Assembly: GCA_958295665.1 (NCBI GenBank)
Contig: OY282560.1
Location: forward strand, 21,535,653-21,599,652
Length of the DNA stretch: 64,000 nucleotides
From: Tipula vernalis
Taxonomy: Eukaryota; Arthropoda; Insecta; Diptera; Tipulidae
Direction: 5' to 3'
A program made the translations under genes and the position numbers. Position 1 is the first letter of the stretch. Each line of letters begins with the position of its first letter. Shown in pieces: positions 2,582 through 50,804 of the stretch. Below the pieces are notes generated by a model that was given only the letters and a program-made list of their open reading frames with translations, searched no databases and was not told the origin of the DNA.

Positions 2582-4501
2582 GAATTTATTTCGGAGTTTA
2601 AGAAGTTAAATTTGGCGGACTCAGGAGGTTGTGGTGCATCGACAATAGACATATTACTTGGTGTGGATATATTTTTTAAATGTCTCAAGAGTGGCAAAAT
2701 TGATTTGCCAAACAAACTACTGGCAGTAGAAACTGATTTTGGTTGGATTCTTGCGGGAACACCACATACGGCAGGACCATCAAGTTTAAGATCATTCAAT
2801 ATTCTGACCGATATTAATAAAAATCTGCGTATGTTCTGGGAAATAGAGGAAATCCTTAAGAAACCAAGGGAAACTACAGATGACAACAGTTGTGAAGAAT
2901 TATTCAAGGCCACAACCTTTCGTGGAAACGATATGAAGTTCACAGTGAGACTGCCATTTCGAACACCAGCCGTGCTGTTAGGTTCTTCATATCATCAGGC
3001 ACTCAGTAGGTTACATTCAATGGAACGCAAGTTTAAACGCAATCCAGAGTTTCAGGCACTATACGTTCAATTCATGGAGGAATATGAACGGCTAGGGCAC
3101 ATGAAATATATACCGGGTCCTCCCGATCAGAAGTTGTACTACCTACCACATCACGGTGTGGAGAAAGCTTCCAGTTCAACTACAAAATTACGAGTAGTTT
3201 TTGATGGTTCAACGAAATCGCAAAGCGGAGTATCCATAAACGATGTACTCATGACTGGGCCCTCAGTACAATCACCTCTAGTGGAAATCCTTATACGCTT
3301 CAGGCAACACGCTTTCGTGGTCACGGGTGATGTGGAAAAAATGTATAGACAAGTGTGGGTCTCTGAAAAGGATAGTGAACTGCAAAACATCTTATGGCGT
3401 CCACACTCCAATGCACCAGTGCGTAGATATTGTTTAAAGACCATTACTTATGGTACGGCGTCAGCTGCTTATTTAGCTACTCGAAGTTTAGTGGAAGTTG
3501 CCAGAAACATCCAATCAGAATTTCCAAAAGCAGCTAAATCAATCGAAGAGGACACCTATGTTGACGATCTAATGACGGGAGCAAATACCATCGAAGAATT
3601 GCAGGATTTAATTATCGCCATCCGAAACTGTCTACAAAACCACGGGTTTCACCTTCGAAAGTTTTTATCCAATGATGTAGAAATTCTAAGATGTTTAGGA
3701 GAACAATGCAATTTAATGTCGAAACCTATAAATAATAAAGAAGATACAAAAATTTTAGGTCTTTCTTGGAATCAAGGTGAAGATACATTCGGGTTTACTT
3801 CCAACTTACCAGAGAGCAGCCGCCATACAAAGCGAACCTTATTATCTGAAGCCAGCAAAAACTTCGATCCACTAGGGTGGTTATCTCCATTGACAATTAA
3901 AGTCAAAATCTTGTTTCAAGCTCTTTGGGTCAGAAACATAGAATGGGATGACGAGCTTCCGCAGGATATATTAGAAGAATGGCTCAAAATAAGGCACGAA
4001 TATTCGATGATTGCACAAATTAAGGTTCAAAGGTGGCTCAAGACAACAACCAAATTCACGCTTCATGGATTCAGTGACGCTAGCGAAAATGCGTATGCAG
4101 CTGCAGTATATTGTGTTGCTGAGGGATATTCTACTTTGATTGCGGCGAAATCGAAGGTCGCTCCAGTGAAACAATTAAGTATCCCTAGCTTAGAGTTATT
4201 AGGAGCATTGTTGCTAAGCAAATTAATGACATTGATTGAAAGGGCTAGCACAATGGTAATATCGCAAAAGGTTCTATGGACGGATTCACAAATTGTGTTA
4301 GATTGGCTTTCGGCACATCCACGAAGATGGTCAACATTTGTCGGAAATCGCACAAGTGAAATCATCGATGCTTATCCACGAAAACTTTGGCGGCACATAC
4401 CGTCAAAACTTAATCCAGCTGATCTAGCTTCCCGCGGTATTCCGGTAGAAGAGCTGGCAAATAGTACATTGTGGTGGAGTGGCCCTACTCTACACGGCTG
4501 A
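2582..4501 (+). pseudogene. BEL/Pao retrotransposon pol fragment (protease end, RT, RNase H)
   Basis: This uninterrupted frame of about 640 codons starts inside the aspartic protease (IDILLGVDIFF, ETDFGWILAG). It continues through a BEL/Pao reverse transcriptase (VVFDGSTKSQSG, YRQVWV, active site YVDD at about residue 325) and RNase H (GFSDASENAYAA, TDSQIVLDWL, NPADLASRG). It ends at a stop at 4499-4501, just after LWWSGP. Gag, the front of the protease and the whole integrase are missing, and no LTR is visible. Both edges abut virus-like sequence, so this is an internal fragment rather than a 5'-truncated insertion. The RT catalytic motif is intact. Confidence 0.88.
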
Positions 4502-17421: not shown

Positions 17422-18114
17422 ACTTGATGATTTGATGAAATCTTTCAATGATGTTGAGGGCTTGGCTGCAATTATGGATGCAATGGCAATCGCAGATCTA
17501 GATAAATCAAAAGGTCTCACTTCTGATGCTGCAAAGCTTTGAAAGGTTTGATTGAATTTAAACCATGGGATGCCAATTTATTCCGTCATTTTTTATGGCG
17601 TCTAATTCAATTTGTTCCCACTACCTTTAAGCTTGGTGACGAAAATGTTGATTCACGAAAATCACCTCAGTTGGTGATACAAGTTATGATTTACTTCTTC
17701 TTGTTAAGAGGAAGCCGTATCGATAAAATGGAATTGAGAACTGCCAATGAGGAAGGCTTAAAATTGATTAAATTAATTCGGCATCAGTATGCCATTGCTC
17801 CAAGTGTAGCAAGAAATGCACCAAATGCAGGAAGCATTATAACATTAGCACGAGTGTGCTCAGCATTCCCAGCATACACAGCTATGCTTGTAGCAAACAA
17901 AAGTGTTGATAGAACTCTTGTGTCATTTGAACAACTACGATTAGATGCAAAATTAATATTATCTGCCGATGACAAAAAAGGAGTGAGTGTCCTAGAAAAA
18001 GCACAAAGGGCAATTGCAAGCGGATTTTTCCATGCTTGTATGACTGAGCCAATGATTAAAGCTAATTGCTGGTGGATAACACTTTACCATGCATTATTAG
18101 TTTTCAAGGGATAA
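17422..18114 (+). pseudogene. Bunyavirus-like nucleoprotein (EVE), copy 2
   Basis: From 17422 it matches 417-863 almost base for base, then continues into more of the same protein type (FPAYTAMLVANK, KLILSADDKKG, ASGFFHACM) to a stop at 18112-18114. About 230 codons overall is close to the length of phenuivirus-type nucleoproteins. A one-base deletion near 17533 shifts the frame relative to copy 1. This copy shows what copy 1 lost at its chimeric join. A poly(A) tract lies about 155 bp downstream. Confidence 0.5.
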
Positions 18115-22019: not shown

Positions 22020-22673
22020 TTAAGAGGTGGTACCAGTATGGGAATAAAACATCGCGGGGTCGGTAATAGGTGAAAAACGGATTTCTCTCTGTTCGTTGAG
22101 GATATTTTGGTTAAGGAATATGGATTTTCGGATTTCGTAAGATTCTAGGTTGTCTAAACGTCTGCCTTTTGGTTGTACATGTAATATTTCAAAGTTATTA
22201 AAACTAGCTGTATGGTTTTCTAACGTTAAATGATTGTGTAAAGATGATACGCGACTACCAGATAAATGTTCTTTAATTCTAACTTCAAAACTGCGCCCAG
22301 TCTGTCCAATATAAGAGGAACTACAATCATTGCAATTGATCTTATAAACTCCAGACTTGGAAAGGCGGTCAATTCTTGGTTTGTTGTTAAAGATCATTTT
22401 CTTAATTGTATTATTATTATAAAAAGCTAAACTAATATCTGTATATTCTGACACGATGTTACTAATCCGTTGGCTAGTTTTCCCTATATACTCTAAGCGG
22501 CACCATTGTTTCGGTATTGGGCTATCAGGTGGATATATGTAAGCTAAAGTTTTGCGTTTCAGTTTTTTGTTTAATAACTTTAATATAGTCTTAGCTGCAT
22601 AACCGTTATTCGCTGCTATTTCTAAAATTATATTAAGCTCTGTGTTGTAATTGGAATTAGTAGCGAAGATCAA
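22020..22673 (-). pseudogene. PLE C-terminal domain with GIY-YIG endonuclease
   Basis: The 217-codon frame shows the GIY-YIG-type motif GVYKINCNDCSSSYIGQTGR with the CxxC-like insertion of PLE endonucleases. RIKEHLSG and NHLTLENHT supply further conserved residues, followed by a LE..EI block. The normal PLE order is RT then GIY-YIG; here the RT is absent, so this is a 5'-truncated copy. Confidence 0.82.
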
Positions 22674-24070: not shown

Positions 24071-24149
24071 TCCACATACACATCCGGATTCACATACACA
24101 ATTGATAGTTTACATATCATGTGACGTAAAATAATATAAAACAAACAAA

Positions 24150-24994
24150 AATAATAAGTGAGATTAAAAAGAAACTAAAAGAAAACAGTGCCACAATAAC
24201 TAATGCTGATAAAGGAAACACAATAGTAATCATGAAAACCCATGAATACGACAACAAAATAGATGAATACATCAAAAACAATAAAATAGAGAAACTTCAA
24301 ACAGATCCAACCAACGAATTTAATACAAAAATTAAACAAATTATCAATAGATCAAACAACATAATGAGCGATAAAACCATAAGATACAACAAAATGATCA
24401 AACCATCGGCACCGCATATAAGAGGACTACCGAAGATACACAAAGATGGTAAGCCAATAAGACCATTAATCAACTTCACAACAGCACCTACATATAAAAT
24501 TTCGAAACATATAAACATTTTAAAACAATATATAAAATTAGATAATTTTAATTCTTTAAAAAATAATATAAATTTAGTTAATAGAATAAAGTCAATAGAT
24601 ATACCACATAACGCAAAATTAGCCTCCTTCGACATTACCAACATGTACACGAACATTCCAATAAACGAGACAATAGCAATAACCAAAAATTTATTAATAA
24701 AAAACGGCAAAAAAGCAATAGAAACAGAAGAAATAATTAATATTATAACGGAAATAACAAAACAAAACTATTTCACACATAACAAAGAATTTTACAAACA
24801 GACAGAGGGATTACCCATGGGAAGCCCACTATCTGGCACTTTAGCAGAAATATATTTAAACAACTTCGAGAACAGATACATACATAATAGGAATAACATA
24901 TACAGGGATAACATAATTTATTGGTATAGATACGTAGATGACATAATATTATTATTTAAAAGAACAAAAAGGCAATTAGACAAATTACACCAAC
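24150..24994 (+). pseudogene. Penelope-like element, RT half, interrupted at 24994
   Basis: The frame has the PLE reverse transcriptase landmarks: ADKGNTIVIM, IRGLPKIHKDG, RPLINFTTAPT, ASFDITNMYTNIPI, GLPMGSPLSG and the catalytic YRYVDDIILL. It breaks off after LDKLHQ at 24994, where the BEL LTR begins. The missing C-terminal half resumes at about 34112, so the two blocks are one element split by about 9.1 kb. The first in-frame ATG is at 24232, but homologous residues begin upstream of it. Confidence 0.88.
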
Positions 24995-25728
24995 TGAATT
25001 GCAATAATTCCAGTTCAAATTTTATTATTGTGAATTTGATAACAATAATCCAGCACGGGCAGCAGTTCTCAATATTTGATGTGTTTAACAAAAAAATAAG
25101 TTGTTTCGTAATAAATGTATTTGCTTAATTATAGGTTGTTTCGCCTTTTTTATTTTTCCAAAATGGTGTTCGCCTTTTTAATAATTATTTTCTTCGCTAT
25201 CTTTACTTGCTGAAGGTTGGTTTTGAACAGGACAGATTTATACAATTTATTTTCCAATTAATTTCTAGGTTGGTAATGGTTTATGGTTCATCAGTACATC
25301 TAATTTTCTGCAGATGTCGTAATAGTGATGAACCATAAACCGAACGTACTCATTTTTTCGCATATATAAATTAAATGGCATTTGTTATTGTAAACAAATA
25401 TCCAGACGTCAAAATGATTGCGTTCGACATAAACAAATTGGTGAATATTTTTATTTTCTTAACGATTTAACATTAAATAATTCACAACTAACTTAATCAT
25501 TTCAGAATTCAATTGCTGTTAATGTGAATTAAGATAAGTATAGTTTTTAAGTGTACATTAAATTATTCTAATTTATAATTGTGTAATTCTAGGTTATGAT
25601 ATCGTATATACATCAAATTGAAAGCTAAGTATATAATTAATTCTTAATTCTAAATTCCTTTTTTTGTTTTTGCAGTTGCTGAGCTAAATAGTACGGCTGA
25701 GTTTTGATGATGTGAATAATTTTATTCA
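24995..25728 (-). repeat. BEL LTR copy 1 (3' LTR)
   Basis: Runs from TGAATTGC to TTTATTCA on the plus strand and matches 31289-32020 without a difference that I noticed. It sits directly after the interrupted PLE frame. It contains an internal inverted repeat (GGTTTATGGTTCATCA / TGATGAACCATAAACC) at about 25275-25341. Confidence 0.93.
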
Positions 25729-25741
25729 TTCTCCCGGCCTT
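25729..25741 (-). promoter_or_regulatory. Polypurine tract of the BEL element
   Basis: On the minus strand AAGGCCGGGAGAA immediately precedes the LTR start TG, the position where plus-strand DNA synthesis is primed. Confidence 0.7.
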
Positions 25742-25756
25742 AAGGAGCTTGTCTCC

Positions 25757-28700
25757 TTAATAATTTTCATCGAATACAGGAATTGGAACAATTTTGTGCA
25801 ATGGTCGCTTGAATGTACTGCTGGATGTTTTTACAGTGACCACACGGACTTGCTGATCATCGCCAGGATGCACGTCGATTATTTTACCTAACGCCCATTT
25901 GCAAGGGGGTAGGTAATCTTCTTTGAGTACGACTATATCGCCTATCTTGATATTGCGCTTACTTTCTTGCCATTTGTGACGCTGCTGTAAATTGTTTAAG
26001 TATTCGACCCGAAATTTACGCCAGAACGATAATGTGCGCTGTTGAATGGCAGACCATAATTTTGATAAGCAAATACCTCTAGTTTCATCAAACGGCTCGG
26101 GTATTAATGTGAGTGTCGAGCCTATCAGAAAATGAGCCGGAGACAATACTTCAATATTGATGTCATCGGAAGATGTTACAGTAAGCGGTCGTGAATTAAC
26201 TATTGCCTCTATGTTACACAGGAGGGTCGTCATTTCTTCGTAGGTTAAATTTATGCCGTGTGTTGCTTTGTTGAGATGCTTCTTCACAATTTTGACCGCA
26301 GATTCCCAAATACCGCCAAAATGTGGAGTTAACGGAGGGATGTAATGCCACTCAATAGAATTCGTTGCTAAATAACTGCCAATTTCCCGTTGAAATTCAA
26401 TTGACGTATTAAGTCGCTGGATGTCACTGGTGTATTTCCGAGCCAACACTGTTAACTCTCTCAATTTCCTGTCTGCCCCGACGAAATTGGACCCGTTGTC
26501 GCTGTAAATTTTGGCCGGTAAACCTCGTCTTGCTATAAATCGCCGTAACGCTGCTATAACCGCATCTGCCGTATAGTCCGACACAACCTCTAAATGAATA
26601 GCTTTCGTTGATAGGCATACAAATACAGCAATGTATCCCTTTAATGTTTTTGCACCTCGTCCTCGCCTGGTTAAAAGTGAAATGGCTCCCGTGAAATCAA
26701 GGCCTGTGTTGGTAAATGGCCTGACTGGTTGAACTCTGTATTCTGGTAGCTGACCCATGATTTGTTGCGGTGTCTTCCCATTGAATCTGGCACATATAAC
26801 ACACTCTCGTACCATTTTGTTCACTAAACTTCTACCCTTAATAATCCAAAATCTTTGCCTACAAAGAAAAAAAGTTAGCGAAGCCCCTGAATGGATATAT
26901 TTTAAGTGTATGTGTCTTATGATTAATTGACTTAAGAAGCTCCTTTTCGGAAGAATAATGGGGTGTCTCGCATCAAACGGTATACTCGCGTTTTCTAATC
27001 TTCCCCCTACTCGTAGGATATTCTTTTCGTCGAGAAATGGGTTCAGAGATTTAATTATGTATTTTCGCGGAAGTTCTCTGGATTGTTTAAGAATTGTGAT
27101 TTCTTCACCTAATTCTGTGCTTTGTACCCATTTAATACAAAATTCCTCTGCTAGCCTTAGTTCTTGAGTCGTTATAAATGTATGTCGCCTTTCTTTATCT
27201 TTACCCTTATGTCTCTGAACCCATCGTTGAACATATACCACTACTCGTAACACCTTTGAGTAGCTCGAGCATTTTTCTACAAGTGTCGTCAAAAAATGAT
27301 CTTCAGAAGTTATATGGACTGCTACTAAACTATCCCTCTTAAGTTCTGCTTGTATCGCCAAAGTATCTGGTTCCATTAGCTCCCCATTTTCAATCAATTG
27401 ACTCCGAGAAGCACTTCTTAGCCATACGGGTCCATGCCACCAACTATCTAATGTGCACAGCTTTTCAGGTAGTATACCTCGACTCGCGACATCTGCAGGA
27501 TTATCTTTAGATTTTACGTGATCCCACTGCTCTCTGGGACATATACTTAATATTTCACTTGTCCTGTTGCCTACATACTGCTTCCACCTTCTGGGATGAT
27601 CATTAAGCCAGGCAAGCACAATTTGAGAATCTGTCCATACATGTTTGGTGTGCGGAATGTCTTTTAGTAAGTCAGACACTTTTTTTAGGAGTTTTGTAGC
27701 TAAAACACAAGCGCAAAGTTCCAGTCGTGGAAGAGAAATGGTTTTTATTGGACTCACTTTAGTTTTCGACGTGACCAGAGATACATTCACTACCCCATCC
27801 GTTGACTCGCTTCGGCAGTAAACTACAGCTGCATATGCCCTTTCGCTTGCATCAGCAAATGCATGTAATTGTACTTTCCCATCCATTATCATCTGTCTTT
27901 GAATTCGTAAATTTTCGAACTGTTTAAATTGATGTCTGATTGTAATCCATTCTTTTTGTATATTTTTAGGTATCGGATCATCCCAATTCAACTTTGTCAA
28001 CCATAACTGTTGAAATTGAATTTTTATCAATATAATAGAAGGAGACAACCATCCGAGTGGATCATATAATTTAGAAGATTCAGATAACATGATTCGTTTT
28101 GTTATATGATTTGTATTTAATTCCACAGATTTGAAGGTAAAGAAATCCTCTTCGGGGTACCAATGTAGGCCTAGTATTTTGATGGTCAAAGCATTGTCAT
28201 CAATTTTCACGTATTCCTTTAAATCGTTGAATTCCTTAACGTTGGAGGACCATTTTCGTAATTCAAACCCACCTGATGATAATATTTTGATTACTTTATT
28301 CTTCAAATCTTCTAAACCTTGGACACTATCTGAGCCAGTGAGCAAATCGTCTACATAGAAGTCGTTTTTGATCGCATTGGAAGCTTCTGGGTAACGAGTT
28401 AAATTCTCCTTTGCAAGCTCTACTAAACATCGCGTGGCTAAAAATGGTGCCGATGATGTTCCATATGTTACCGTTTGTAACTTAAATATTTTTAACTGAT
28501 CTGATGAACTTTCCCTCCAAAATATTCGCTGATAGTTCTTACCCTCTTCATTTATTTGGATTTGGCGATACATTTTTGCTATATCTGCACTGATCGCAAA
28601 TTTATGGGTCCTGAATCGCAAAAGTATCTCCCATAGTGATTGTTGAATGGTTGGACCAACTAACAACGTATCGTTCAGTGAAACGCCGGTTGAAGTCTTA

Positions 28701-30952
28701 CACGACCCATCGAAGACTACTCTCACTTTCGTAGTCAGGCTATCTCGTTTTATCACCGCATGATGTGGCAGATAAAAACTCTTGTCATCGTTTACTTCGT
28801 ATTCATCTCTCGCGCATTCATGCATGTGGCCCATTTGTAAATATTCTGCCATGAATTGGCTATATTCATGATTAAGTTCCTTATTGTTTTCCAATTTTTT
28901 CTCTAAATTATAAAATCGCCTCTTTGCCACATACGAAGAATTCCCAAGTTCCAATGCAATGTTCTTAAATGGCATGCTGACCACAAATCGCCCATCTTGA
29001 CCTCGCTTAGTGTGCTTTCTATAATGCCTTTCAATCTCGTAGTCATCCGGATTACTAGCCTTGTCACATAGTTCCTCCTGTTCCCAAAATCGCCTTAATA
29101 AATGATCAACGTTTAGCTCGAGGTTAAGATTGAGGATGGTAGATGTTACTTGTGTACCTCCCGAAATTATATAGCCTAGCACTGTATTTTGTGCAATTAA
29201 TGATGCCTTACATTTTCTGCCATCTCTTAGCAATCTGAAGAACAAATCCGCTCCTATTATCATGTCGATTTTCCCAGCCTTGTTAAAATTAGGATCAGCT
29301 AACTCGATTTCGTCGAATGCTTCTATGTTTCTGATGTTAACGGCTGACACCTCCAATGGTAAACATTTTAAAATCAAGAAATCTGCCTTTATTATTTCAT
29401 TTGACTGCCTTGGCATAAATTCAATTGATGCAAGTCCTTCAGTTACTAATTTTGATGTTGCCAAGCCTGATATTGCAATTCGCGCATTTCCTTTGGGAAT
29501 ATTTAGATTCTTGAAAAATGTTGAATCAATGAATGAGGCTTGTGATCCACTGTCCAATAGAGCTCTGCATAATCGAATTTTTCCCAAAACATCTTTGACT
29601 CTTATCACGGCCGTAGGGAGAATTGTATGATCGTCGGAATTGATATTTCCCATTTGAAGCGTCTTCACACCTTGACGGTTCGCGTTTGTTTCCGATACTG
29701 CTTCTTGTTTGGGTTTGTTCTCAAGGGATTCAACTGGATCAGTATGCAATAGATGATGATGTCGCCGTTTGCATTTAAAACACCTCATTCGTAATCTGCA
29801 ATTCGACGATAAATGCCGCGATCCTATGCAATTAAAACATAGGCCCTTTTCTGCTATGAAACCCCTCTTGGCCGTCACCTCCATACTATTAAACTTCGCG
29901 CACTTGTGTAAACCGTGATTGTCGCTGCACATTGGACATGATTTTACTTGTTCTACACTTACATTCGCATTGGTGATTTGTGGTTTATCTGTTCTTCTCG
30001 TTGTTGTCGGTTCACACTTCTCTAATGCATCGCCTCGTTTATTGAGAAACTCAATGAATTCCGTCAACTTGGGGAATGACTTCTTGTGCGATTCCAATGC
30101 CCAGGCTGTTTTCGTTTCGGTATCACATTTCTCAATTAGTAAATATATCAACCACGTGTCTCTAGACTCAGCATCAGGACCTAACGCGGTTATGCCTCTA
30201 ATAATTTCATCGCTTTTATCAGCCATTTGGCGAATATCCTTTGATTTTCCATGTAATCTTGGTTGATCAAGAAATTGTTTAATTAACGTGTTCATTATAT
30301 GGTCCTTATGATCGTAGCGTTGCACAATTTTCTCCCACGTGCTACTATAGTTAATCTCTGTGATTTGAATATGCTTTACCAAATTAGCCGCTTCACCAAC
30401 GAGTAAACTTTTTAAATATTTAAATTTATGGACCTTGGAAATATTTACGTTTTTGTGAATAGAAGACTCGTACATATCCTTAAATGACGGAAAATCAGAG
30501 TAGTTGCCATTGAATGGTTGTATATCAATTTTTGGCAACCGAATATCATCATGACATACTTCTTTTATACTAAAACTCTTGTCGTGCAGATTATCAAAGT
30601 AATCCTTTTGCTGTTGAACAAATGTGCGCATCGTATCATTGAATTGTTTATGCAGATCTTGGTACATAACATTTTTCTTTGTCGACTCCGTTTTTAATAG
30701 TGCCTTCAGTCTGCAATATCGCCCTTCTTGCTCGTCGATTTCCGATGGTTGACTATACATTAATAACCGTTCATCTAATTCCTTAAATTCACTGTACGAG
30801 GCTTCCAATAATTCAAGGCGAATATTGATATCTTCATTGTTCGCTTCCTTTAAGGTCAGAGAACAAAAATTTTCAACACGCGTTATGCCCGCCTTCGCCT
30901 GACCACGTTTTTTACGCAAACCTTCTATTTCCTTCTGGTTGTCGGCCGTCAT
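25757..30952 (-). CDS. BEL/Pao Gag-Pol polyprotein, intact, 1731 aa
   Basis: A single frame in family order: an N-terminal Gag region with coiled-coil character; zinc-knuckle Cys/His clusters (CPMCSDNHGLHKC, CFNCIGSRHLSSNC, CFKCKRRHH, about residues 340-400); aspartic protease ALLDSGSQASF (about 466); reverse transcriptase VVFDGSCKTSTG with NDFYVDDLLTG (about 867); RNase H FADASERAYAA and TDSQIVLAWL; and an integrase with an HHCC domain (about 1370-1390), SDNGSNF (about 1484) and GGIWESAVK (about 1550). All catalytic residues expected are present and no stop interrupts the frame, so the copy could be autonomous. Confidence 0.97.
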   Translation of the reverse strand: MTADNQKEIEGLRKKRGQAKAGITRVENFCSLTLKEANNEDINIRLELLEASYSEFKELDERLLMYSQPSEIDEQEGRYCRLKALLKTESTKKNVMYQDLHKQFNDTMRTFVQQQKDYFDNLHDKSFSIKEVCHDDIRLPKIDIQPFNGNYSDFPSFKDMYESSIHKNVNISKVHKFKYLKSLLVGEAANLVKHIQITEINYSSTWEKIVQRYDHKDHIMNTLIKQFLDQPRLHGKSKDIRQMADKSDEIIRGITALGPDAESRDTWLIYLLIEKCDTETKTAWALESHKKSFPKLTEFIEFLNKRGDALEKCEPTTTRRTDKPQITNANVSVEQVKSCPMCSDNHGLHKCAKFNSMEVTAKRGFIAEKGLCFNCIGSRHLSSNCRLRMRCFKCKRRHHHLLHTDPVESLENKPKQEAVSETNANRQGVKTLQMGNINSDDHTILPTAVIRVKDVLGKIRLCRALLDSGSQASFIDSTFFKNLNIPKGNARIAISGLATSKLVTEGLASIEFMPRQSNEIIKADFLILKCLPLEVSAVNIRNIEAFDEIELADPNFNKAGKIDMIIGADLFFRLLRDGRKCKASLIAQNTVLGYIISGGTQVTSTILNLNLELNVDHLLRRFWEQEELCDKASNPDDYEIERHYRKHTKRGQDGRFVVSMPFKNIALELGNSSYVAKRRFYNLEKKLENNKELNHEYSQFMAEYLQMGHMHECARDEYEVNDDKSFYLPHHAVIKRDSLTTKVRVVFDGSCKTSTGVSLNDTLLVGPTIQQSLWEILLRFRTHKFAISADIAKMYRQIQINEEGKNYQRIFWRESSSDQLKIFKLQTVTYGTSSAPFLATRCLVELAKENLTRYPEASNAIKNDFYVDDLLTGSDSVQGLEDLKNKVIKILSSGGFELRKWSSNVKEFNDLKEYVKIDDNALTIKILGLHWYPEEDFFTFKSVELNTNHITKRIMLSESSKLYDPLGWLSPSIILIKIQFQQLWLTKLNWDDPIPKNIQKEWITIRHQFKQFENLRIQRQMIMDGKVQLHAFADASERAYAAVVYCRSESTDGVVNVSLVTSKTKVSPIKTISLPRLELCACVLATKLLKKVSDLLKDIPHTKHVWTDSQIVLAWLNDHPRRWKQYVGNRTSEILSICPREQWDHVKSKDNPADVASRGILPEKLCTLDSWWHGPVWLRSASRSQLIENGELMEPDTLAIQAELKRDSLVAVHITSEDHFLTTLVEKCSSYSKVLRVVVYVQRWVQRHKGKDKERRHTFITTQELRLAEEFCIKWVQSTELGEEITILKQSRELPRKYIIKSLNPFLDEKNILRVGGRLENASIPFDARHPIILPKRSFLSQLIIRHIHLKYIHSGASLTFFLCRQRFWIIKGRSLVNKMVRECVICARFNGKTPQQIMGQLPEYRVQPVRPFTNTGLDFTGAISLLTRRGRGAKTLKGYIAVFVCLSTKAIHLEVVSDYTADAVIAALRRFIARRGLPAKIYSDNGSNFVGADRKLRELTVLARKYTSDIQRLNTSIEFQREIGSYLATNSIEWHYIPPLTPHFGGIWESAVKIVKKHLNKATHGINLTYEEMTTLLCNIEAIVNSRPLTVTSSDDINIEVLSPAHFLIGSTLTLIPEPFDETRGICLSKLWSAIQQRTLSFWRKFRVEYLNNLQQRHKWQESKRNIKIGDIVVLKEDYLPPCKWALGKIIDVHPGDDQQVRVVTVKTSSSTFKRPLHKIVPIPVFDENY

Positions 30953-30982
30953 TATAGTAAACTTGTTACTCGCAAAACTATC

Positions 30983-31082
30983 ACAAATTTAATCGCAAGG
31001 CTTTCAATCACAAATTTAATCGCAAAGTTTAAGTCACAAATTTAATCGCAAAGTTTTAAATTACAATTTTAATCACAAGGTC
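30983..31082. repeat. Tandem repeat of about 25 bp in the BEL leader
   Basis: About four imperfect units close to TCACAAATTTAATCGCAAAG sit between the primer-binding site and the Gag start. Their role is unknown; leader repeats can affect packaging or promoter activity. Confidence 0.75.
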
Positions 31083-31271
31083 ATAGATTAATTCACTACT
31101 TGGTCACACTTTATAATGTTCAAATTAAATCCCGTTTTATGATCGCAATGTTACCGTTTATCACAAATTAAGTAAGTAATAGTTAACTGACTTACGGTTT
31201 TTCTTGATTTCAGGTCGATGGCTCACCCTATCCAAATTCACGTGCTCGATGTAATGTCTTTCAAATCCACA

Positions 31272-31288
31272 TCCGGCTCGAAGGACCA
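31272..31288 (-). promoter_or_regulatory. tRNA-Tyr primer-binding site of the BEL element
   Basis: The plus strand reads TCCGGCTCGAAGGACCA, identical to a mature tRNA 3' end with CCA. Pairing its acceptor arm predicts a tRNA starting CCTTCGA, which fits insect tRNA-Tyr. It abuts the 5' LTR without a spacer, as expected for minus-strand priming. Confidence 0.85.
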
Positions 31289-32020
31289 TGAATTGCAATA
31301 ATTCCAGTTCAAATTTTATTATTGTGAATTTGATAACAATAATCCAGCACGGGCAGCAGTTCTCAATATTTGATGTGTTTAACAAAAAAATAAGTTGTTT
31401 CGTAATAAATGTATTTGCTTAATTATAGGTTGTTTCGCCTTTTTTATTTTTCCAAAATGGTGTTCGCCTTTTTAATAATTATTTTCTTCGCTATCTTTAC
31501 TTGCTGAAGGTTGGTTTTGAACAGGACAGATTTATACAATTTATTTTCCAATTAATTTCTAGGTTGGTAATGGTTTATGGTTCATCAGTACATCTAATTT
31601 TCTGCAGATGTCGTAATAGTGATGAACCATAAACCGAACGTACTCATTTTTTCGCATATATAAATTAAATGGCATTTGTTATTGTAAACAAATATCCAGA
31701 CGTCAAAATGATTGCGTTCGACATAAACAAATTGGTGAATATTTTTATTTTCTTAACGATTTAACATTAAATAATTCACAACTAACTTAATCATTTCAGA
31801 ATTCAATTGCTGTTAATGTGAATTAAGATAAGTATAGTTTTTAAGTGTACATTAAATTATTCTAATTTATAATTGTGTAATTCTAGGTTATGATATCGTA
31901 TATACATCAAATTGAAAGCTAAGTATATAATTAATTCTTAATTCTAAATTCCTTTTTTTGTTTTTGCAGTTGCTGAGCTAAATAGTACGGCTGAGTTTTG
32001 ATGATGTGAATAATTTTATT
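31289..32020 (-). repeat. BEL LTR copy 2 (5' LTR)
   Basis: Matches copy 1 over its full length except that the outermost CA dinucleotide is absent. At 32021 the sequence changes directly to the 5' leader of the viral nucleoprotein. A normal target duplication is not present at this edge. Confidence 0.93.
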
Positions 32021-32132
32021 ACCGCTTCGAGTAAAGTCATATAAACATAGTGAAATTAACTATTATATATTTTTACGATTACTCAATTCTTTATTTTGTT
32101 TTTTAATACAAATTGAAATTTAAATCTTCATT

Positions 32133-33476
32133 ATGGCACAGCTCGAGGAGTTTCAACGCAATGACATTAATATGTTCAACAATTTACACTTAATAGTAGT
32201 GGCAGACAATTTTCCAAAATTAGACGATTGTGATTCTTATACTAGAAAATTTTATAAAGACACTGTTACATTCACTTTTTATATAACTCGGAATGCACGG
32301 GAGGTCCTTCGCTATGTAACTGCTTCTCAGGCTGAAATAATACGACATTTTTATCCCGATCTTCTTCGATCAGATGTCAGGCCTATCGAAGCTCCAGGAT
32401 ATGAGACGTCAGACAATCATCTTATTTATCACGGAACAATCGATTCTCTAAAAATAGGATTTCATGAATTGTGGACATGTGCAGATGGCCAATATTGCCC
32501 TTACGATGACAACATGGACATATTAACATACACATCTATGATGGCAAGATATGGATTACCTTGGTATATAGCCTATAGCAAGTATCTTGCTAATCCTGAT
32601 GTCTCTTTAAAGGCAATAGTTCAGTCTCGATCTGGGTTAAAAGTTCACAAATCACCACACTCACCAGGACAATTGGATTTCATCCTCGGTTTTTTCTTCT
32701 ATTGTGCTTACCGTGATACCAGTGATATCGCTCATGTAGAAGCCATAAAAGTAGCACGAATGGCAGCTCTCACCACAGCCACTGGTCAGGACTTTAACAT
32801 TCCTCAAGTAACCAACAGGACATACCAAAAATCATCACTATTATTCTCGACAGCACCCAAATTGAGAAGAGTTGTCTTTGATTTTTTTAGAAAAGAAGCT
32901 AAAAACAACACTATTCTCGCCCATTTCTTAGGACTGATGGAATATTCCGGTATGAGATCGATGAAACTCGCTCATGAGTTTATAACTTCTTCACAACAGA
33001 CTAAGGCCCATCTACGTAAAGAGGTCGTAAGAGAAACAATGACATTCATGGCAGAATGGAAAGTAGCACAGACTGACAATATTGAATTTAGATACAGAAA
33101 AATCCTTAGTCAGGCCGATGAACTTTTAGTTGCAAAAAAGTATCCACATCTCATTGCTGCTGCTGTTTCATTCCATAAAATAACTGACGAATCATTGAGA
33201 AACTTCACCACGCAGATTCGCGATGGAAGATACGACCAAGACGTAAGGATTAAACTTAACGTTGATGTGAAGAGCTTATACACTCAAGAAGAGAAAGACT
33301 TCATCAAAATCACATATGGATGGGATGCTGATGAAGAACTTAAGAAGGAAAAAGCAGCAGCTGACAAAGAAATGAGTCCTGCATCCTTTGTAAATATGTT
33401 CAAAACCAACCTTCAGCAAGTAAAGATAGCGAAGAAAATAATTATTAAAAAGGCGAACACCATTTTGGAAAAATAA
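32133..33476 (+). CDS. Intact negative-strand RNA-virus nucleoprotein-like ORF (EVE), fused to LTR
   Basis: The 447-codon frame from ATG 32133 is preceded by about 112 bp of AU-rich leader and has no stop. Internal blocks such as ARYGLPWYIAY, QLDFILGFFFYCAYR, HFLGLMEYSGMRS and AEWKVAQ have the helical, core-domain look of nucleoproteins of monopartite negative-strand viruses; Chuviridae/Jingchuvirales seem the best fit. Viral-type sequence ends at about 33396. The last 26 codons and the stop are reverse-complement BEL LTR. Such proteins coat viral RNA; in a genome they may be neutral, or serve as small-RNA source or dominant-negative. Intactness suggests youth or selection. Confidence 0.55.
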   Translation: MAQLEEFQRNDINMFNNLHLIVVADNFPKLDDCDSYTRKFYKDTVTFTFYITRNAREVLRYVTASQAEIIRHFYPDLLRSDVRPIEAPGYETSDNHLIYHGTIDSLKIGFHELWTCADGQYCPYDDNMDILTYTSMMARYGLPWYIAYSKYLANPDVSLKAIVQSRSGLKVHKSPHSPGQLDFILGFFFYCAYRDTSDIAHVEAIKVARMAALTTATGQDFNIPQVTNRTYQKSSLLFSTAPKLRRVVFDFFRKEAKNNTILAHFLGLMEYSGMRSMKLAHEFITSSQQTKAHLRKEVVRETMTFMAEWKVAQTDNIEFRYRKILSQADELLVAKKYPHLIAAAVSFHKITDESLRNFTTQIRDGRYDQDVRIKLNVDVKSLYTQEEKDFIKITYGWDADEELKKEKAAADKEMSPASFVNMFKTNLQQVKIAKKIIIKKANTILEK

Positions 33477-33631
33477 AAAAGGCGAAACAACCTATAATTA
33501 AGCAAATACATTTATTACGAAACAACTTATTTTTTTGTTAAACACATCAAATATTGAGAACTGCTGCCCGTGCTGGATTATTGTTATCAAATTCACAATA
33601 ATAAAATTTGAACTGGAATTATTGCAATTCA
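33397..33631 (+). repeat. Inverted 235-bp BEL LTR fragment, 3' end of the viral ORF
   Basis: It is the exact reverse complement, as read, of 33681-33915 (and of 24995-25229 and 31289-31523). It ends at the LTR terminus ...GCAATTCA. The first 77 bases encode the C-terminus of the nucleoprotein-like ORF. A 49-bp filler (33632-33680) built from scrambled LTR-end pieces separates it from the next LTR. Confidence 0.93.
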
Positions 33632-33680
33632 TGGTGAATAATTCCAGTTCAAATTTTATTATTGCAATAATGCATTGCCA

Positions 33681-34111
33681 TGAATTGCAATAATTCCAGT
33701 TCAAATTTTATTATTGTGAATTTGATAACAATAATCCAGCACGGGCAGCAGTTCTCAATATTTGATGTGTTTAACAAAAAAATAAGTTGTTTCGTAATAA
33801 ATGTATTTGCTTAATTATAGGTTGTTTCGCCTTTTTTATTTTTCCAAAATGGTGTTCGCCTTTTTAATAATTATTTTCTTCGCTATCTTTACTTGCTGAA
33901 GGTTGGTTTTGAACAGGACAGATTTATACAATTTATTTTCCAATTAATTTCTAGGTTGGTAATGGTTTATGGTTCATCAGTACATCTAATTTTCTGCAGA
34001 TGTCGTAATAGTGATGAACCATAAACCGAACGTACTCATTTTTTCGCATATATAAATTAAATGGCATTTGTTATTGTAAACAAATATCCAGACGTCAAAA
34101 TGATTGCGTTC
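33681..34111 (-). repeat. BEL LTR copy 3, truncated
   Basis: 431 bp identical in length to the first 431 bp of copies 1 and 2, ending at GATTGCGTTC. The next bases ATAAACAA occur both in the full LTR (three bases later) and in the PLE, so the right join may have formed at short homology. The plus strand here supplies the ATG of the downstream PLE ORF. Confidence 0.9.
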
Positions 34112-34996
34112 ATAAACAACCAACAACCCACTATAAAATTCACGTTAGAAATAGAAAAAGAAAATAGCATCAATTTTTTGGACTTAACTATTAGAAATAA
34201 TAACTCAAAACATACATTTAAAATATATAGAAAACCTACACAGACTGACCAAACAATACATATACAATCTCATCATCCTTATAAACATAGAATATCAAGT
34301 TACAATCATATGATCACCAGACTGAATAACATACCAATGAGCCAAATAGATTACGAAGAGGAATTTAATACAATAAAATATATAGCTAGAAGAAACGGAT
34401 ACAACCCTTCATTAATAGACCAACTCAATAAAAGAAACTTAGCAAGAAACAACTTACAACAATTAACCACTTTGCAAAAACAGAACAATAATAAAGACGT
34501 AAAATACATTAGCGTAGAATATAATAGAACAACTCATAAAGCAATACAGAAAACACTTAACAAATTTGGATATAAAGCAGCATACAAAAACAGCAATAAA
34601 TTAGAACAAAAACTTAGAAATCCAACCAATACTCCAGTAATCGACACAGGTGTATACAAACTGTCATGTGATAACTGCCCCAAATATTACATCGGCCAGA
34701 CAGGTAGAAAATTTGAGACAAGATACAAAGAACATATCAACGACATCAATAAAAAAGAAACAAAATCAAACTATGCACTACATTTAAAAACTGAAAACCA
34801 CAAATACACAGACATTAATACAAATTTGACAATCCTGCATAGAGCTAAAAAAGGACAGAAATTAGATAGACTCGAAGAACTAGAAATATACAAACAGAAA
34901 AACAATAGTAATTTACTCAACGACAAAATTAACACAAAAACAAATAGAATTTATGACTTAGTAATACAAAACACAGAAAGGAGGAGCCCAACATAA
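34112..34996 (+). pseudogene. Penelope-like element, C-terminal half with GIY-YIG endonuclease
   Basis: This resumes the PLE frame broken at 24994: NNQQPTIKFTLEIE, NSINFLDLTI, the RKPTQTDQTIH thumb region, then the endonuclease with GVYKLSCDNCPKYYIGQTGR, RYKEHIND and LHLKTENHKY, ending at a stop at 34994-34996. The open frame actually begins at 34061 in LTR copy 3, so 17 residues of LTR origin precede the PLE residues. Without the insertion the PLE gene would be a single frame apart from the join. Confidence 0.88.
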
Positions 34997-35083: not shown

Positions 35084-35191
35084 TCGATTTTTTAAAAAAT
35101 AAACTAAAAATATTACCACAATAAGGAAAAATAATAAAATTCAGAAATAATAATATAAACATTAATTGTTTTTATTTTAAATTTAAAATAC

Positions 35192-35794
35192 AACATCGAT
35201 GAAACTCTCAAGCAATTTTGGGAGTTAGAGCAAATACCGAATGACGCGCCCATTTTGAAGCCAGAGGAAGAATTATGTGAGCAAAGGTTCAAAACTACTT
35301 ACCACAGATGTGACGACGGGCGGTGCCAAGTTAGACTACCATTCAAAGCCGATACCACGAAATTAGGTAGTTCAATTACTATGGCAATCCAACGATTAAG
35401 AGGTGTAGAACGTCGATTTACTCGAGATAATGAGTATCATGAGCTATATACAAATTTTATGAACGAATATCTCAGCATGGGTCATATGGTAGAAGTTTCA
35501 AAAACTACAATAACAGATGATGATGTATTCCTTCCACACCATGGAGTTCTAAAAAGAGACAGTTCAACGACGAAGCTTCGCGTAGTATTTGATGGTTCTG
35601 CGAAAACTAGTTCTGGCGTGTCGCTCAATGATTGTCTAGCAGTTGGTCCCACAGTGCAAGCCACACTTTATGCAATAATTCTGCGTTTTCGAGAACATCG
35701 AATAATTTTCTCGGCCGATATCGAAAAAATGTACCGGCAGATTCGAATCCACAACGATGACACCAAATTTCAAAACATTCTCTGGATTATTTGA
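35192..35794 (+). pseudogene. BEL/Pao RT fragment, third BEL lineage in the window
   Basis: The frame begins mid-protein (QFWELEQIPND) and covers the linker region and first half of the reverse transcriptase (VRLPFKADTTKLGSS, LPHHGVLKRDSSTTKLRVVF, FSADIEKMYRQI), ending at a stop just after the NILW block. The YVDD active site and everything later are missing. The sequence differs clearly from the BEL copies at 2.6 and 25.8 kb, so it is a separate family. Confidence 0.85.
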
Positions 35795-35903: not shown

Positions 35904-36348
<445 letters not shown>

Positions 36349-46236: not shown

Positions 46237-49200
46237 ATGCCACGTCTTCGTGGAAGAGCAAAAAACATTGGTCGGCGTACTCGGAACGCCCAATTAGTCC
46301 ATGATCGTCGGTTAAATAGATCAATTGAAGAACACTCAACGGATAATGCAAATTTAAGAGATCAAGTTGCATGTTCACGAGCAAATGAGAATTCAGAGCA
46401 ACGCGTTCAACGTCTTCATGCTAATGCATTGAGACAACGAGAGGCACGTGAACGAGCTACCGACGCACAGAGAGACCATCACCATCAACAAGTGCAACAT
46501 AATCGAGCATTGTCACGAGCATCATTTAATCGTCTCGCGTTCGAATATGTTCCTGAAATAGATTATTCGTCACATGCACTAATCACGATAGGTAGTATGG
46601 ACAAAGAGTGTCAATATTGTCATGCTTTCAAGTATAACGGTGAATCAACTGGTTTATGTTGCGCATCTGGAAAAATTTCACTGCCATCGCTAAAACCACC
46701 ACCGGAACCTTTAAAAACACTTTTAGCCGGAACCACATCTCGATCGAAATTGTTTTTGCGAAAAATTCGTAAATTCAATTCATGCTTCCAAATGACATCA
46801 TTTGGAGCAACAAAAATTGTTCATAATGAAGATGGTCGTAATTTTGAATCTACATTCAAGATTCAAGATCAGGTGTACCACCAAATTGGTTCATTGCTTC
46901 CAATGCCTGATGCCGATCCAAAATTTCTACAAATTTATTTTATGGGCGATGAGGAGGAACAATCACATACACGCTGCCTTTACAACCATATAGAGCGGAT
47001 GGAAGAACGAGAAATTGTGGATAAGTTGCAAACGTTTTTGCAAAACAATAACCAATTGATACGATTGTTTAAGACTCTTTCTAACAGACTACAAAACGAC
47101 AACTACGTCATTGTCATTAAAGCAGACAAAGTGCCCTATGGAGAGCACGCAGGCACATATAATGTTCCAACTATTAATGAAGTTGCAGTCGTTATGGCTG
47201 GTGACCCATGTGAACGTCGAGATATTCGCATACAACGCAGAGATAATACGATGCAAATAATTCAAGACAATCATCGTTCTTACGATGCTTTGCAGTATCC
47301 GTTGATATTTTGGGAAGGAGAAGATGGATATCATATCAATATTAAACAAAGAAATCCAACTACAGGTACAACTTATAAATTATTTTAAAATTATTTTATT
47401 TTAATCAATAATTTCTGTTAATCTCATAATTATATTTATTTGCAGGTGAAGAACTGAACAAGAAAGTTAGTGCTATGAACTACTATGCATATCGACTAAT
47501 GATTCGTGCCAATGAAGATAATGGTATTCTCCGATGCAGACAGCTATTCCATCAGTACATTGTCGATATGTATGTAAAAATCGAAAGTGAGAGATTACGA
47601 TACATACAATTTAATCAAGCAAAACTTCGTGCTGAGGAGTACATTCATTTACGTGACGCCGTAATCGGCAATGTAGATGCAACGAATGACATCAACAATA
47701 TTGGTACCGCATATATTCTTCCATCATCATACACTGGTAGCCCGCGTCATATGCAGGAATATATTCAAGATGCCATGACTTACGTACGTGCATACGGCCG
47801 ACCTGATCTTTTTATCACATTTACGTGTAATCCAAACTGGGATGAAATCAAAAGTTTACTGTTGCCAGGTCAAACATCGATGCACCGTCATGATGTCACT
47901 GCACGTGTCTTTAAACAAAAATTAAAATCTTTGATGAATTTGATTACACATTACTCGGTATTTGGTGAAACGCGTTGTTGGCTTTACTCTGTTGAATGGC
48001 AAAAACGAGGTTTACCTCATGCGCATATTTTAATTTGGTTGGTGGATAAAATACGCGCAGAAGAAATTGACAAAATTATTTCAGCGGAAATTCCAGATCC
48101 GAATGTTGATCCAGAATTGTTTAACATTGTTACTACAAATATGATCCATGGTCCATGTGGCACTCTAAACATGATGTCGCGATGTATGGATAGTGGAAAA
48201 TGTACAAAAGGTTTTCCAAAACCATGTGAAACTGATACTATCACCAATATGGACGGTTATCCATCTTATCGACGTAGAGACGTAGACAATGGTGGTCAAT
48301 CATATGAATTGCGTCTGTCAAATGGTGTGAGAGTAGATATTGATAATCGCTGGGTAGTTCCATATTCGCCATTGCTGTGCAAAACCTACAAAGCGCACAT
48401 AAACGTTGAACTATGCAGTTCGGTGAAGTCTATCAAATACATTTGTAAGTATGTTCACAAGGGTAGTGATAAAGCTATATTTGCTGTTCGAAATGTAAAC
48501 GACAATGACGAAATAACACGTTATCAAATGGGTCGATACATAAGTAGCAACGAAGCTATTTGGCGCATTTTTACGTTCCCTATACATGAAAGGAATCCTG
48601 CTGTTATACATTTGGCTGTGCATCTTGAAAACGGACAGCGTGTTTACTTTACAGAAGAAACTGCACTACAACAGGCTTTGACGGCTCCAAAAACAACTCT
48701 TACTGAATTTTTTAACCTTTGTAGTCGACAAGATGCTGTTGGTCAATTCGCAAGGACGTTGATGTACACTGATGTTCCTAAATTTTTTACATGGAATAAA
48801 CAATCAAAGAATTGGGAACCGCGGAAACGAGGCATTCCAGTCCCAGGATTCGCTGATATATTTATGACAAATACTTTAGGTCGATTATATACAGTTCATC
48901 CTAAGCAAAGCGAATGTTTTTTTTTACGTTTATTACTGGTTAACGTCCCTGGACCGACGTCCTTCCAATATTTGCGAAAAGTCAATGGTACTTCATACGA
49001 CTCTTTCTTCGATGCGTGTCGTGAGTTACATTTATTGGAGGATGATAACCATTGGGATCTCACACTTGCAGATGCAGTACTGAGCTCATCTCCACAACAA
49101 ATTCGTCAATTATTTTCAATAATATTGACAACGTGTTTTCCGTCTGATGCATCTGCTCTGTGGAACAAATATAAAGACTCAATGAGTGAGGATATTTTGC

Positions 49201-50804
49201 ATCGGACTAGAATTACTAATCAAAATCTTAATATTGAATTCTCCGCCGAAATATACAACGAGTCATTAATAATGATTGAGGATATTTGTATTCTTATTTC
49301 AAACATGCCGCTCATCCATTTTGGAATGCCAGCGCCGAATCGCCCAGCAGTAGACATCATCAACAGCGATGTTCAACGTGAACACCAGTTCGATAAGATT
49401 TCTTTGGCTACTTTTGTTGCGGAAACTGAACAATTGCTTACTGCTGAACAACGAAATGTATATGATCAAATTAACGTTTCAATTGCAGCACAACAAGGTG
49501 GATTCTTTTTTTTAGACGCTCCAGGTGGCACTGGTAAAACATTTCTTATCGCACTGATACTTGCGCGGATTCGATCTCAAAATCATATTGCATTGGCCAT
49601 TGCTTCATCAGGCATTGCAGCAACGTTACTTGATGGTGGACGGACTGCGCATTCAGCACTTAAATTACCTTTGAACGTTCATACAAATCCCGAAGCAATG
49701 TGTAACATAAAGAAGCATTCAGGCATGGCTGAAGTTTTGAGAAAATGTAAAATTATTATCTGGGATGAATGTACAATGGTCCACAAGCATTCGCTTGAAG
49801 CTCTCGACAGGTCCCTGAAAGATATCAAAAATAATGCTCGGCTTTTCGGTGGTGCCCTACTTCTGCTGTCTGGTGATTTCAGACAAACATTACCAGTCAT
49901 TCCACGCGCGACATATGCAGACGAAATAAACGCATGTTTGAAAGAATCTTATCTATGGCTAAGTGTCACTAAATTATGCCTTACTATTAATATGCGCGTT
50001 CGACTTCAAAATGATCCATTAGCGTCAGGATTCTCTGAACAATTGTTAGACATTGGAAACGGTAAAATTCAATTGTATGAAGATACACAATATATTCGAC
50101 TTCCAGAGAATTTTTGCAACATGGTGGCTACCAAAGATGAGTTAATAACAAGTATCTTTCCAGATTTAAGACATAATTATACTAATCATGAATGGCTGCG
50201 AGAGCGAGCTATTTTAGCAGCAAAAAATTTAGATGTTGACGCCATCAATTTTAAAATACAACAGTCATTGCCCGGTGATGAAATTACATTTAAATCGATT
50301 GACACTGTTGTTGATCCTGACGAAGTTGTCAACTATCCTGTAGAGTTTCTAAATTCACTAGATTTACCTGGAATGCCAACACATAATTTGCGACTGAAAA
50401 TTGGCTCACCTATAATTTTGCTTCGAAATTTAAATGCCCCAAAATTGTGTAATGGAACGCGATTAGTTGTAAAAAAAATCATGGGCAACATTCTTGAAGC
50501 AACTATTTTGAGTGGAAAATTTCAAGGTGAAGTTGTACTTTTACCAAGGATCCCAATGATTCCTTCAGATTCGCCTATACCATGCAAACGTTTACAATTT
50601 CCAATCCGCTTGGCATATGCTATGACTATAAATAAGTCACAAGGCCAAACAATGACAATTTGTGGCTTAGATTTAGAAAACCCATGTTTTTCTCACGGCC
50701 AATTATATGTTGCGTGTTCCAGAGTTGGAAAACCATCGAATTTATTTATTTATACACCTCAGGGTTTAACCAAAAATATTGTACATCCAATGGTATTACG
50801 ATAA
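46237..50804 (+). CDS. Helitron RepHel protein, intact, one intron, 1495 aa
   Basis: Exon 1 46237-47365, intron 47366-47445 (GTACAA...TTGCAG, 80 bp) and exon 2 47446-50804 join in phase. The N-terminal region holds a Cys-containing segment (CQYCHAFKYNGESTGLCC). The Helitron-like domain follows with FITFTCNPNW, the HUH motif GLPHAHILIWL, and the Rep tyrosine motif KYICKYVHKGSD. The C-terminal half is a Pif1-family helicase with Walker A APGGTGKTF, ISWDE-type IIWDECTM, SGDFRQTLPV and NKSQGQTM. This protein performs rolling-circle transposition. No stop or frameshift is present. Confidence 0.95.

Follow-up and report, generated by a model that had tools for sequence, protein, structure and literature searches.

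A BEL/Pao retrotransposon joined to a virus-like gene and to strong-stop-like LTR pieces inside a Penelope-like element of Tipula vernalis

In the genome of the dipteran insect Tipula vernalis, a BEL/Pao retrotransposon lies beside a virus-like, possibly nucleoprotein-coding gene (hereafter N) and two further pieces of its own long terminal repeat (LTR), and the whole block interrupts a Penelope-like element (PLE). We analyzed this block within a stretch of 64,000 nucleotides (the window; contig OY282560.1 of assembly GCA_958295665.1, here C3:21535653-21599652). The assembly comprises 1.27 Gb in 340 contigs, with C1, C2 and C3 measuring 464, 412 and 371 Mb. A recent capture of virus-like RNA by BEL reverse transcription, inside the PLE, as an earlier note on this DNA had proposed, fits the evidence better than the rival explanations weighed below. 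Regarding the mechanism, we lean moderately toward a recent non-retroviral endogenous viral element made by BEL/Pao, in which a stalled strong-stop DNA primed on viral RNA and the products were end-joined into a break.

Architecture of the composite block

Along the plus strand the order is LTR A, antisense Gag-Pol, LTR B, sense N, an inverted LTR piece, filler and a third LTR piece (the C piece). Read in BEL sense, this becomes R-U5-TGG, filler, ACCA-U5 antisense, N antisense, LTR B, gag-pol and LTR A. The features are listed below by window position.

24130-24994, plus strand: left part of the PLE with its reverse transcriptase domain (RVT_1, E 2e-13), 863/868 identical to the uninterrupted copy L051
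24995-25728, minus strand: LTR A, the element's 3' LTR, 734 bp with TGAAT...ATTCA ends and an exact outer end, as in siblings
25729-25739, minus strand: GGCCGGGAGAA, adjoining LTR A, which we take to be the polypurine tract; same bases beside sibling LTRs
25757-30952, minus strand: BEL/Pao Gag-Pol, 1731 aa in one open frame, with Pfam domains and motifs
30980-31090: 27-bp tandem repeats in the BEL 5' untranslated region
31271-31288, minus strand: primer binding site TGGTCCTTCGAGCCGGAT, directly beside LTR B, in the same place in siblings and presumably tRNA-Tyr-like
31289-32020, minus strand: LTR B, 5' LTR of the complete BEL copy, 732/734 nt, 732/732 identical to LTR A
32020-32034, plus strand: last codons and stop (YRFE-stop) of an upstream open reading frame (ORF), aligning with YKYE-stop of the 458-aa frame of locus L002
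32035-32132, plus strand: intergenic stretch that separates N from the upstream ORF and has a collinear counterpart in L002 and L003
32133-33476, plus strand: N open frame, virus-derived to about codon 424 (33404), last 23 codons LTR-encoded
33397-33404: TGTTCAAA, where N meets U5, a probable microhomology of up to 8 nt with the same bases as LTR nt 500-507
33397-33635, plus strand: inverted piece, made up of LTR nt 500-734 in BEL orientation followed by TGGT, LTR part identical to LTR A
33636-33677: filler, 42 nt, pieced together mostly from fragments of LTR ends, the longest match being 28 nt
33678-34111, minus strand: C piece, CCA plus LTR nt 304-734, R-U5-like, 431/431 identical to LTR A
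34112-34996, plus strand: right part of the PLE, 489/490 identical to L051 over 34111-34600

By its domain order, LTRs, primer site and polypurine tract, the part from 24995 to 32020 is a BEL/Pao retrotransposon. The Pfam matches of Gag-Pol follow each other in BEL order (DUF1759, RVT_1, Peptidase_A17, Integrase_H2C2, rve and DUF5641), with RVT_1 reaching 27.5 bits, under the cut-off of 29.6, and YVDD present; the motifs DSG, YVDD and CCHC-like were all found. Sibling copies repeat both the primer site that begins with TGGTCCTTCGAGCCGG and adjoins LTR B and the GGCCGGGAGAA that adjoins LTR A. Their LTRs share the length of 734 bp (745 bp in one sibling) and start with TGAGT on the plus strand, compared with TGAAT in the window. 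LTR B is without its outer 2 nt (CA on the plus strand). An LTR of only 441 bp was ruled out by the 734-bp sibling LTRs. At least 44 genome matches to the window LTR were counted, including the four pieces of the window (A, B, C piece and inverted piece); this count is a lower bound, with 40 of 93 first-look candidates scored. Assuming 2.8e-9 changes per site per generation, an insect-like rate, the 0 differences in 732 nt set a 95% upper limit of ~0.7 million generations on the age. The viral contigs held no match to the BEL element. Two more elements of this kind lie in the window, namely a second BEL/Pao element at 2573-4501 (plus strand; reverse transcriptase and Peptidase_A17, 43% identical to the main BEL) and a BEL-like fragment at 35159-35785 (plus strand, 46% identical).

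The insertion site departs from that of a canonical BEL insertion, in which a 5-bp duplication surrounds the unit. Perfect 5-bp target duplications were found in all seven sibling insertions with both flanks read (C1:210.19, C2:372.31, C2:400.97, C3:276.43, C2:219.46, C2:338.00 and C2:145.69 Mb); the sibling at C3:75.46 Mb, with one flank only, was left out of this count. CCAAC precedes the composite and ATAAAC follows it, and the empty target reads CCAAC-A-CATAAAC in 7/7 uninterrupted PLE copies read, out of 50 listed PLE matches. The composite therefore has no target duplication and has lost 1-2 bp of target, and the unit was not inserted as a normal BEL. A duplication obtained by letting the LTR end in ATAAACAA, with CCAAC repeated, was rejected, since relatives and empty sites assign ATAAAC to the PLE. 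The PLE itself is probably 5'-truncated, as its likeness to the intact copy begins at 24130. Among 120 listed PLE relatives the spacing is 39 in 100, and the few relatives with organism names are insects. A GIY-YIG frame at 22020-22673 (minus strand) apparently belongs to another PLE in opposite orientation, 36% identical to the interrupted one, and a TA repeat of ~440 bp lies to the right of the PLE at 35904-36345.

Much of what the earlier note described is borne out. The order of the pieces was found at the positions it gave, the BEL polyprotein is intact, one PLE open frame is split by the block, and the LTRs are identical, with LTR A matching LTR B over 732 nt, the C piece over 431 and the inverted piece over 235, identities too long to be due to chance. 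Its third LTR proved to be LTR sequence, but only the 431-nt 3' part with CCA before it. What it called the nucleoprotein leader (32020-32132) begins with the final codons and the stop of the upstream ORF and is otherwise intergenic stretch. The viral ORF that it regarded as intact is indeed open, but relatives continue differently after codon 424 (33396-33404), where the LTR-encoded codons follow. As a whole, this observation is partly confirmed.

Joints, private variants and the order of events

Variants private to the window stand at six LTR positions (4, 180, 237, 364, 370 and 451, numbered along the LTR on the plus strand). All six private states are present in LTRs A and B, the C piece has five of the five it covers and the inverted piece two of two, while 6/6 sibling LTRs compared show the other state at every one of these positions. 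Because all four LTR pieces share these variants, the extra pieces come from the same element and not from older genomic LTRs.

Both U5 pieces stop at the boundary between U5 and primer site plus a few primer-site bases. The inverted piece ends in TGGT, the first 4 nt of the primer site, and the C piece reads CCA (3 bases) on the plus strand, followed by the complement of LTR nt 734-304. Since tRNA-primed products would carry such bases at their ends, we read the two as strong-stop DNAs: the C piece as a complete minus-strand strong-stop and the inverted piece as a partial one, copied back into the tRNA end. LTR nt 304, at 34111, is the presumed RNA start and sits 29 nt after the start of a TATA-like ATAAAAATA run.

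Around the joint between N and U5 the sequence is CCTGTTCAAAACC in the LTR and ATATGTTCAAAACC in the window, which places the change from N to LTR at TGTTCAAA. The native C-terminus of N is replaced from here by the 23 LTR-encoded codons (junction codons ATG TTC AAA, 33396-33404), a tail that matched only BEL LTRs in the genome search. The relatives of N read TGTTTAAA (L007, the nearest of them), TGCTTAAA (L002), TGTTCAGA (L006) and TGCTTAGA (L005), and agree with the LTR at 7/8, 6/8, 7/8 and 5/8 bases, respectively. Agreement at 7/8 or better arose in 0.07% of 300,000 random pairs of 8-mers from the L007 N and the LTR, and an exact overlap of at least 8 nt in 0.021% of 400,000 random breakpoint pairs. 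A microhomology of up to 8 nt at this joint is probable. At the other end of the viral part, base 32020 is common to LTR B and the end of the upstream ORF.

In the mechanism that we favor, tRNA-primed minus-strand strong-stop DNA would have copied U5 to about LTR nt 500, where its 3' end (TTTGAACA) would have paired over up to 8 nt with positive-sense viral RNA. From TTTGAACA the DNA would then have been extended across N and the intergenic stretch into the final codons of the upstream ORF. N stands antisense to BEL, as a first-strand cDNA of positive-sense RNA primed by strong-stop DNA would. The captured piece spans both the end of the upstream ORF and N, so the template RNA would have contained both ORFs; we infer that it was a bicistronic or readthrough mRNA, or the antigenome. 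This speaks against the earlier proposal of an mRNA of N only, beginning with its own leader. A viral part starting at the 3' end of the viral genome was likewise ruled out by the codons of the upstream ORF. The viral first-strand cDNA, a second and complete strong-stop (R-U5 plus CCA) and the full-length BEL cDNA would subsequently have been end-joined, the two strong-stops meeting at their tRNA ends via the mostly templated filler, and the joined products would have entered a break in the PLE. The remaining joints, i.e., the primer-site ends, LTR B minus 2 nt, the exact LTR A and position 34111, are best read as end-joining at this break, and the loss of 1-2 bp suggests that the break preceded the insertion. 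Template switching, which the earlier note had invoked, suits the U5-N joint with its probable microhomology, whereas the other joints look end-joined; overall, that interpretation is partly supported.

The same pieces might also have arisen through a chain of switches on one BEL minus strand, running from the finished LTR B to a negative-sense viral genome, of which the end of the upstream ORF and N would have been copied in sense, on to strong-stop DNA and then to the R-U5 of BEL RNA, before being joined to the target. This is consistent with the plus strand of the window being the BEL minus strand and carrying N in sense, and with LTR B being almost complete where the viral part begins. We nevertheless regard it as unlikely: four or more serial switches would be needed, the N-joint overlap is just as compatible with a primer 3' end in the opposite direction, and the primer-site bases on both U5 pieces are more simply explained by strong-stop DNAs. 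An assembly or library artefact, such as a chimera or a fold-back around the 239-nt inverted arms, appears very improbable. The inverted arms with their ~43-nt loop do resemble fold-back artefacts, but with no near-identical N elsewhere in the assembly the viral part would have no other source there, and the combination of primer-site bases, probable microhomology and 1-2 bp target loss is not expected of a random chimera.

The virus-like segment and its relatives

The N frame is longer than expected by chance, as it stayed open in 0/2000 shuffles. Of its 22 genome matches, eight are to the LTR-encoded tail only. Apart from the window copy, the remaining 14 comprise 13 further places: a three-copy tandem array at C2:121.38 Mb, five copies on contig C208 and five solitary copies. 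N shares 70-88% amino acid identity with its longer paralogues, and the closest relative reaches 88% over 235 residues, both at the level of amino acid matches, which a near-identical non-coding copy could escape. Compared with L002, L006 and C208, the proportions of nonsynonymous differences (pN) are 0.184, 0.167 and 0.072 and those of synonymous differences (pS) 0.79, 0.82 and 0.73; dN lies at 0.08-0.21 in these three comparisons, with synonymous sites near or past saturation. This amounts to strong coding constraint on N in the three copies compared, as expected of a replicating virus. Several divergent copies, with constraint in three among the 13 other matches, are what is looked for in endogenous viral elements.

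The upstream frame has 15 genome matches, including those of the array. In this array (L002-L004, C2:121.378-121.390 Mb), three tandem units of ~3633 bp each hold a 458-aa open frame followed by N, with the N frames open to 442, 442 and 417 aa. The window segment is collinear with the array from the Y of YKYE-stop through the intergenic stretch into N. A virus is the simplest source for N because of its 13 other matches, the constraint, poly(A) runs at N loci and the collinear partner ORF, and a negative-strand virus nucleoprotein is a plausible, unconfirmed identity. N found no acceptable match in Pfam, NCBIfam, PHROGs or PDB sequences, libraries of uncertain animal-virus content, and no relative among 5.8 billion proteins, viral contigs and genome contigs, from which animal viruses may be absent. 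The nucleoproteins of Jingchuvirales and Mononegavirales, named by the earlier note, are neither confirmed nor excluded as its family, N having no sequence match in PDB sequences. Its weak matches are at chance level (Pfam Lactamase_B_3, E 0.042; PDB 8phh 'Capsid protein', E 0.044; NCBIfam, E 0.093; PHROGs, E 0.049), and its structure model was unusable (pLDDT 35). The upstream ORF gave no acceptable match in Pfam, PDB (best E 0.29) or viral contigs.

The other N loci differ in their surroundings. No LTR of the window BEL family was found around 12 of the 13 other N places, with C3:329.41 Mb not covered, so that no other BEL copy with the same viral insert, which the earlier note had suggested looking for, appeared at these 12. 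Poly(A) runs of 15, 20 and 29 nt mark three types of N loci. At L006, N with 15 A stands between 105-bp direct repeats (99%), and poly(A) with direct repeats gives a picture like that of long interspersed nuclear elements (LINEs). N in the window has neither the poly(A) end nor the target duplication that would indicate LINE-mediated target-primed reverse transcription. N with 20 A at L005 is followed by TTGTCTA and a 15-nt primer-site-like match. On C208, where five N copies stand in tandem, antisense N with 29 T lies 75 nt after the stop of a DUF5641 frame; the units (L007, L008, L013 and L014) are ~2332 bp in tandem and join this frame to poly(A)-tailed antisense N. The integrase part of the frame is a reading of the sequence, with no Pfam integrase match, and C208 may represent a LINE-type insertion into an LTR. 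L024 has a sub-threshold Retrotrans_gag match beside N. Altogether, these loci suggest that N entered the genome more than once and by different ways.

Such older copies could in principle have supplied the window N. The virus-like RNA might have been transcribed in the host from an older endogenous N instead of coming from an infecting virus, with an otherwise unchanged mechanism, and the long open frames kept at several N loci would be in line with this. We find it distinctly unlikely, given that the closest relative is 88% identical over 235 residues, within the limit of amino-acid-level matches stated above, and that synonymous change near or past saturation at a dN of 0.08-0.21 fits divergence in replicating viruses. 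Alternatively, a normal BEL insertion into the PLE could have been followed by a later repair on the side of LTR B that brought in an older N fragment together with LTR pieces. N copies do exist elsewhere, some beside frames of other LTR retroelements (DUF5641 on C208, the sub-threshold Retrotrans_gag at L024), but the later event would have had to take away precisely the 5-bp duplication along with 1-2 bp of the target and 2 nt from LTR B. Moreover, no N copy closer than 88% amino acid identity was found, and the extra LTR pieces share this element's own variants and carry primer-site bases; we consider such a two-step history quite improbable.

Several points weigh against the strong-stop mechanism itself. 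The missing library matches of N, and the lack of a source virus among viral contigs that may hold no animal viruses, belong here, as does the absence of a donor element with the private variants, none of the other LTR matches listed being 100% identical. At the U5/N joint, L002 and L005 agree with the LTR at only 6/8 and 5/8 bases, and the exact overlap would shrink to 4 nt if the phenylalanine codon of the source virus was TTT; at 32020/32021 the overlap is only ~1 nt. The only pointer to an RNA start at LTR nt 304 is the ATAAAAATA run in an AT-rich LTR, the same final structure can be derived with other orders of switching, and the composite joints were read from the assembly alone.

Two further ORFs of the window are recorded here. 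A 401-aa ORF at 427-1632 (plus strand), just upstream of the second BEL/Pao element, weakly matches the Tenuivirus/Phlebovirus nucleocapsid in its first 146 aa (E ~0.001, below cut-off), which are repeated at 17432-17868 (plus strand; 98% over most), and, both at E 0.067, Orbivirus VP4 and an rRNA methyltransferase J structure in its second half; it is possibly a chimera of two other viral pieces. A Helitron-type ORF of 1109 aa at 47475-50804 (plus strand) contains Helitron_like_N and PIF1 domains and is open throughout.

Relation to known capture events

The comparisons below rest on excerpts of the papers cited. LTR-mediated retroposition was reportedly treated by Tan et al. (2016), a study known to us only via a citing paper. 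In this process, cellular mRNAs are reverse transcribed and the products integrated by integrase through LTR ends (PMC5408686). It shares with the window the microsimilarity-guided template switching between element and foreign RNA (PMC5408686), but the foreign sequence lies inside the element there, whereas in the window N is outside BEL and no target duplication exists. Retrotransposon cDNA and mRNA are also captured at induced breaks in mouse zygotes (RMDR; PMC4516963). As in the window, several reverse-transcribed pieces are joined there with microhomologies and mostly without target duplication; in the excerpt the pieces are truncated and include no viral RNA (PMC4516963), whereas one captured piece in the window is a complete element.

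Viral sequences have been linked to LTR retrotransposons before. In mouse, lymphocytic choriomeningitis virus (LCMV) RNA, which is non-retroviral, was reverse transcribed and integrated via recombination with the LTR retrotransposon intracisternal A particle (IAP), in infected cells and mice and with no endogenous LCMV element found (Geuking et al., described in PMC3205384); in the window the copy is genomic and is accompanied by a BEL/Pao element and by two pieces that resemble strong-stop DNA. Viral integrations in Aedes lie near Pao/BEL and gypsy elements, AeBunya1 even inside a full-length Pao-Bel, and template switching was proposed (PMC5497376). This association with BEL/Pao is shared by the window, but no junction resolved to a priming intermediate appears in the part of that paper considered (PMC5497376). 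The Anakin elements are Pao elements that carry chuvirus glycoproteins inside their LTRs and have multiplied, and of 428 chuvirus endogenous viral elements in mosquitoes 409 were glycoproteins and one a nucleoprotein (PMC7642597). They resemble the window in joining BEL/Pao to a gene thought to be negative-strand viral (PMC7642597), whereas the window N is antisense, outside a complete element and of unconfirmed family, with no second copy of the joint seen. An endogenous nucleoprotein of a virus of the vesicular stomatitis virus family has been described with no BEL link in the excerpt (PMC11907880). Among the titles and abstract openings of a limited literature collection, none described a capture of viral RNA primed by strong-stop DNA. 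Events of this kind are thus already known, and the composite is a new, unusually resolved variant of them.

The entry of viruses without reverse transcriptase via LTR retrotransposons has often been inferred from neighborhood. Here each joint can be read because an identical-LTR copy, normal siblings, intact targets and N paralogues are present in one assembly, and several insertion routes of one viral gene can be compared in one host. We tentatively suggest, as an idea that falls somewhat short of probable, that a stalled LTR-retrotransposon strong-stop acting as primer on unrelated viral RNA, i.e., a misdirected first-strand transfer, could be a general entry route. If this holds true, the primer-site bases at the tRNA end of the strong-stop would still be visible in the chromosome. 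The composite also opens a specific claim to testing, in which capture takes place at strong-stop DNA and the product can be inserted by end-joining instead of by integrase.

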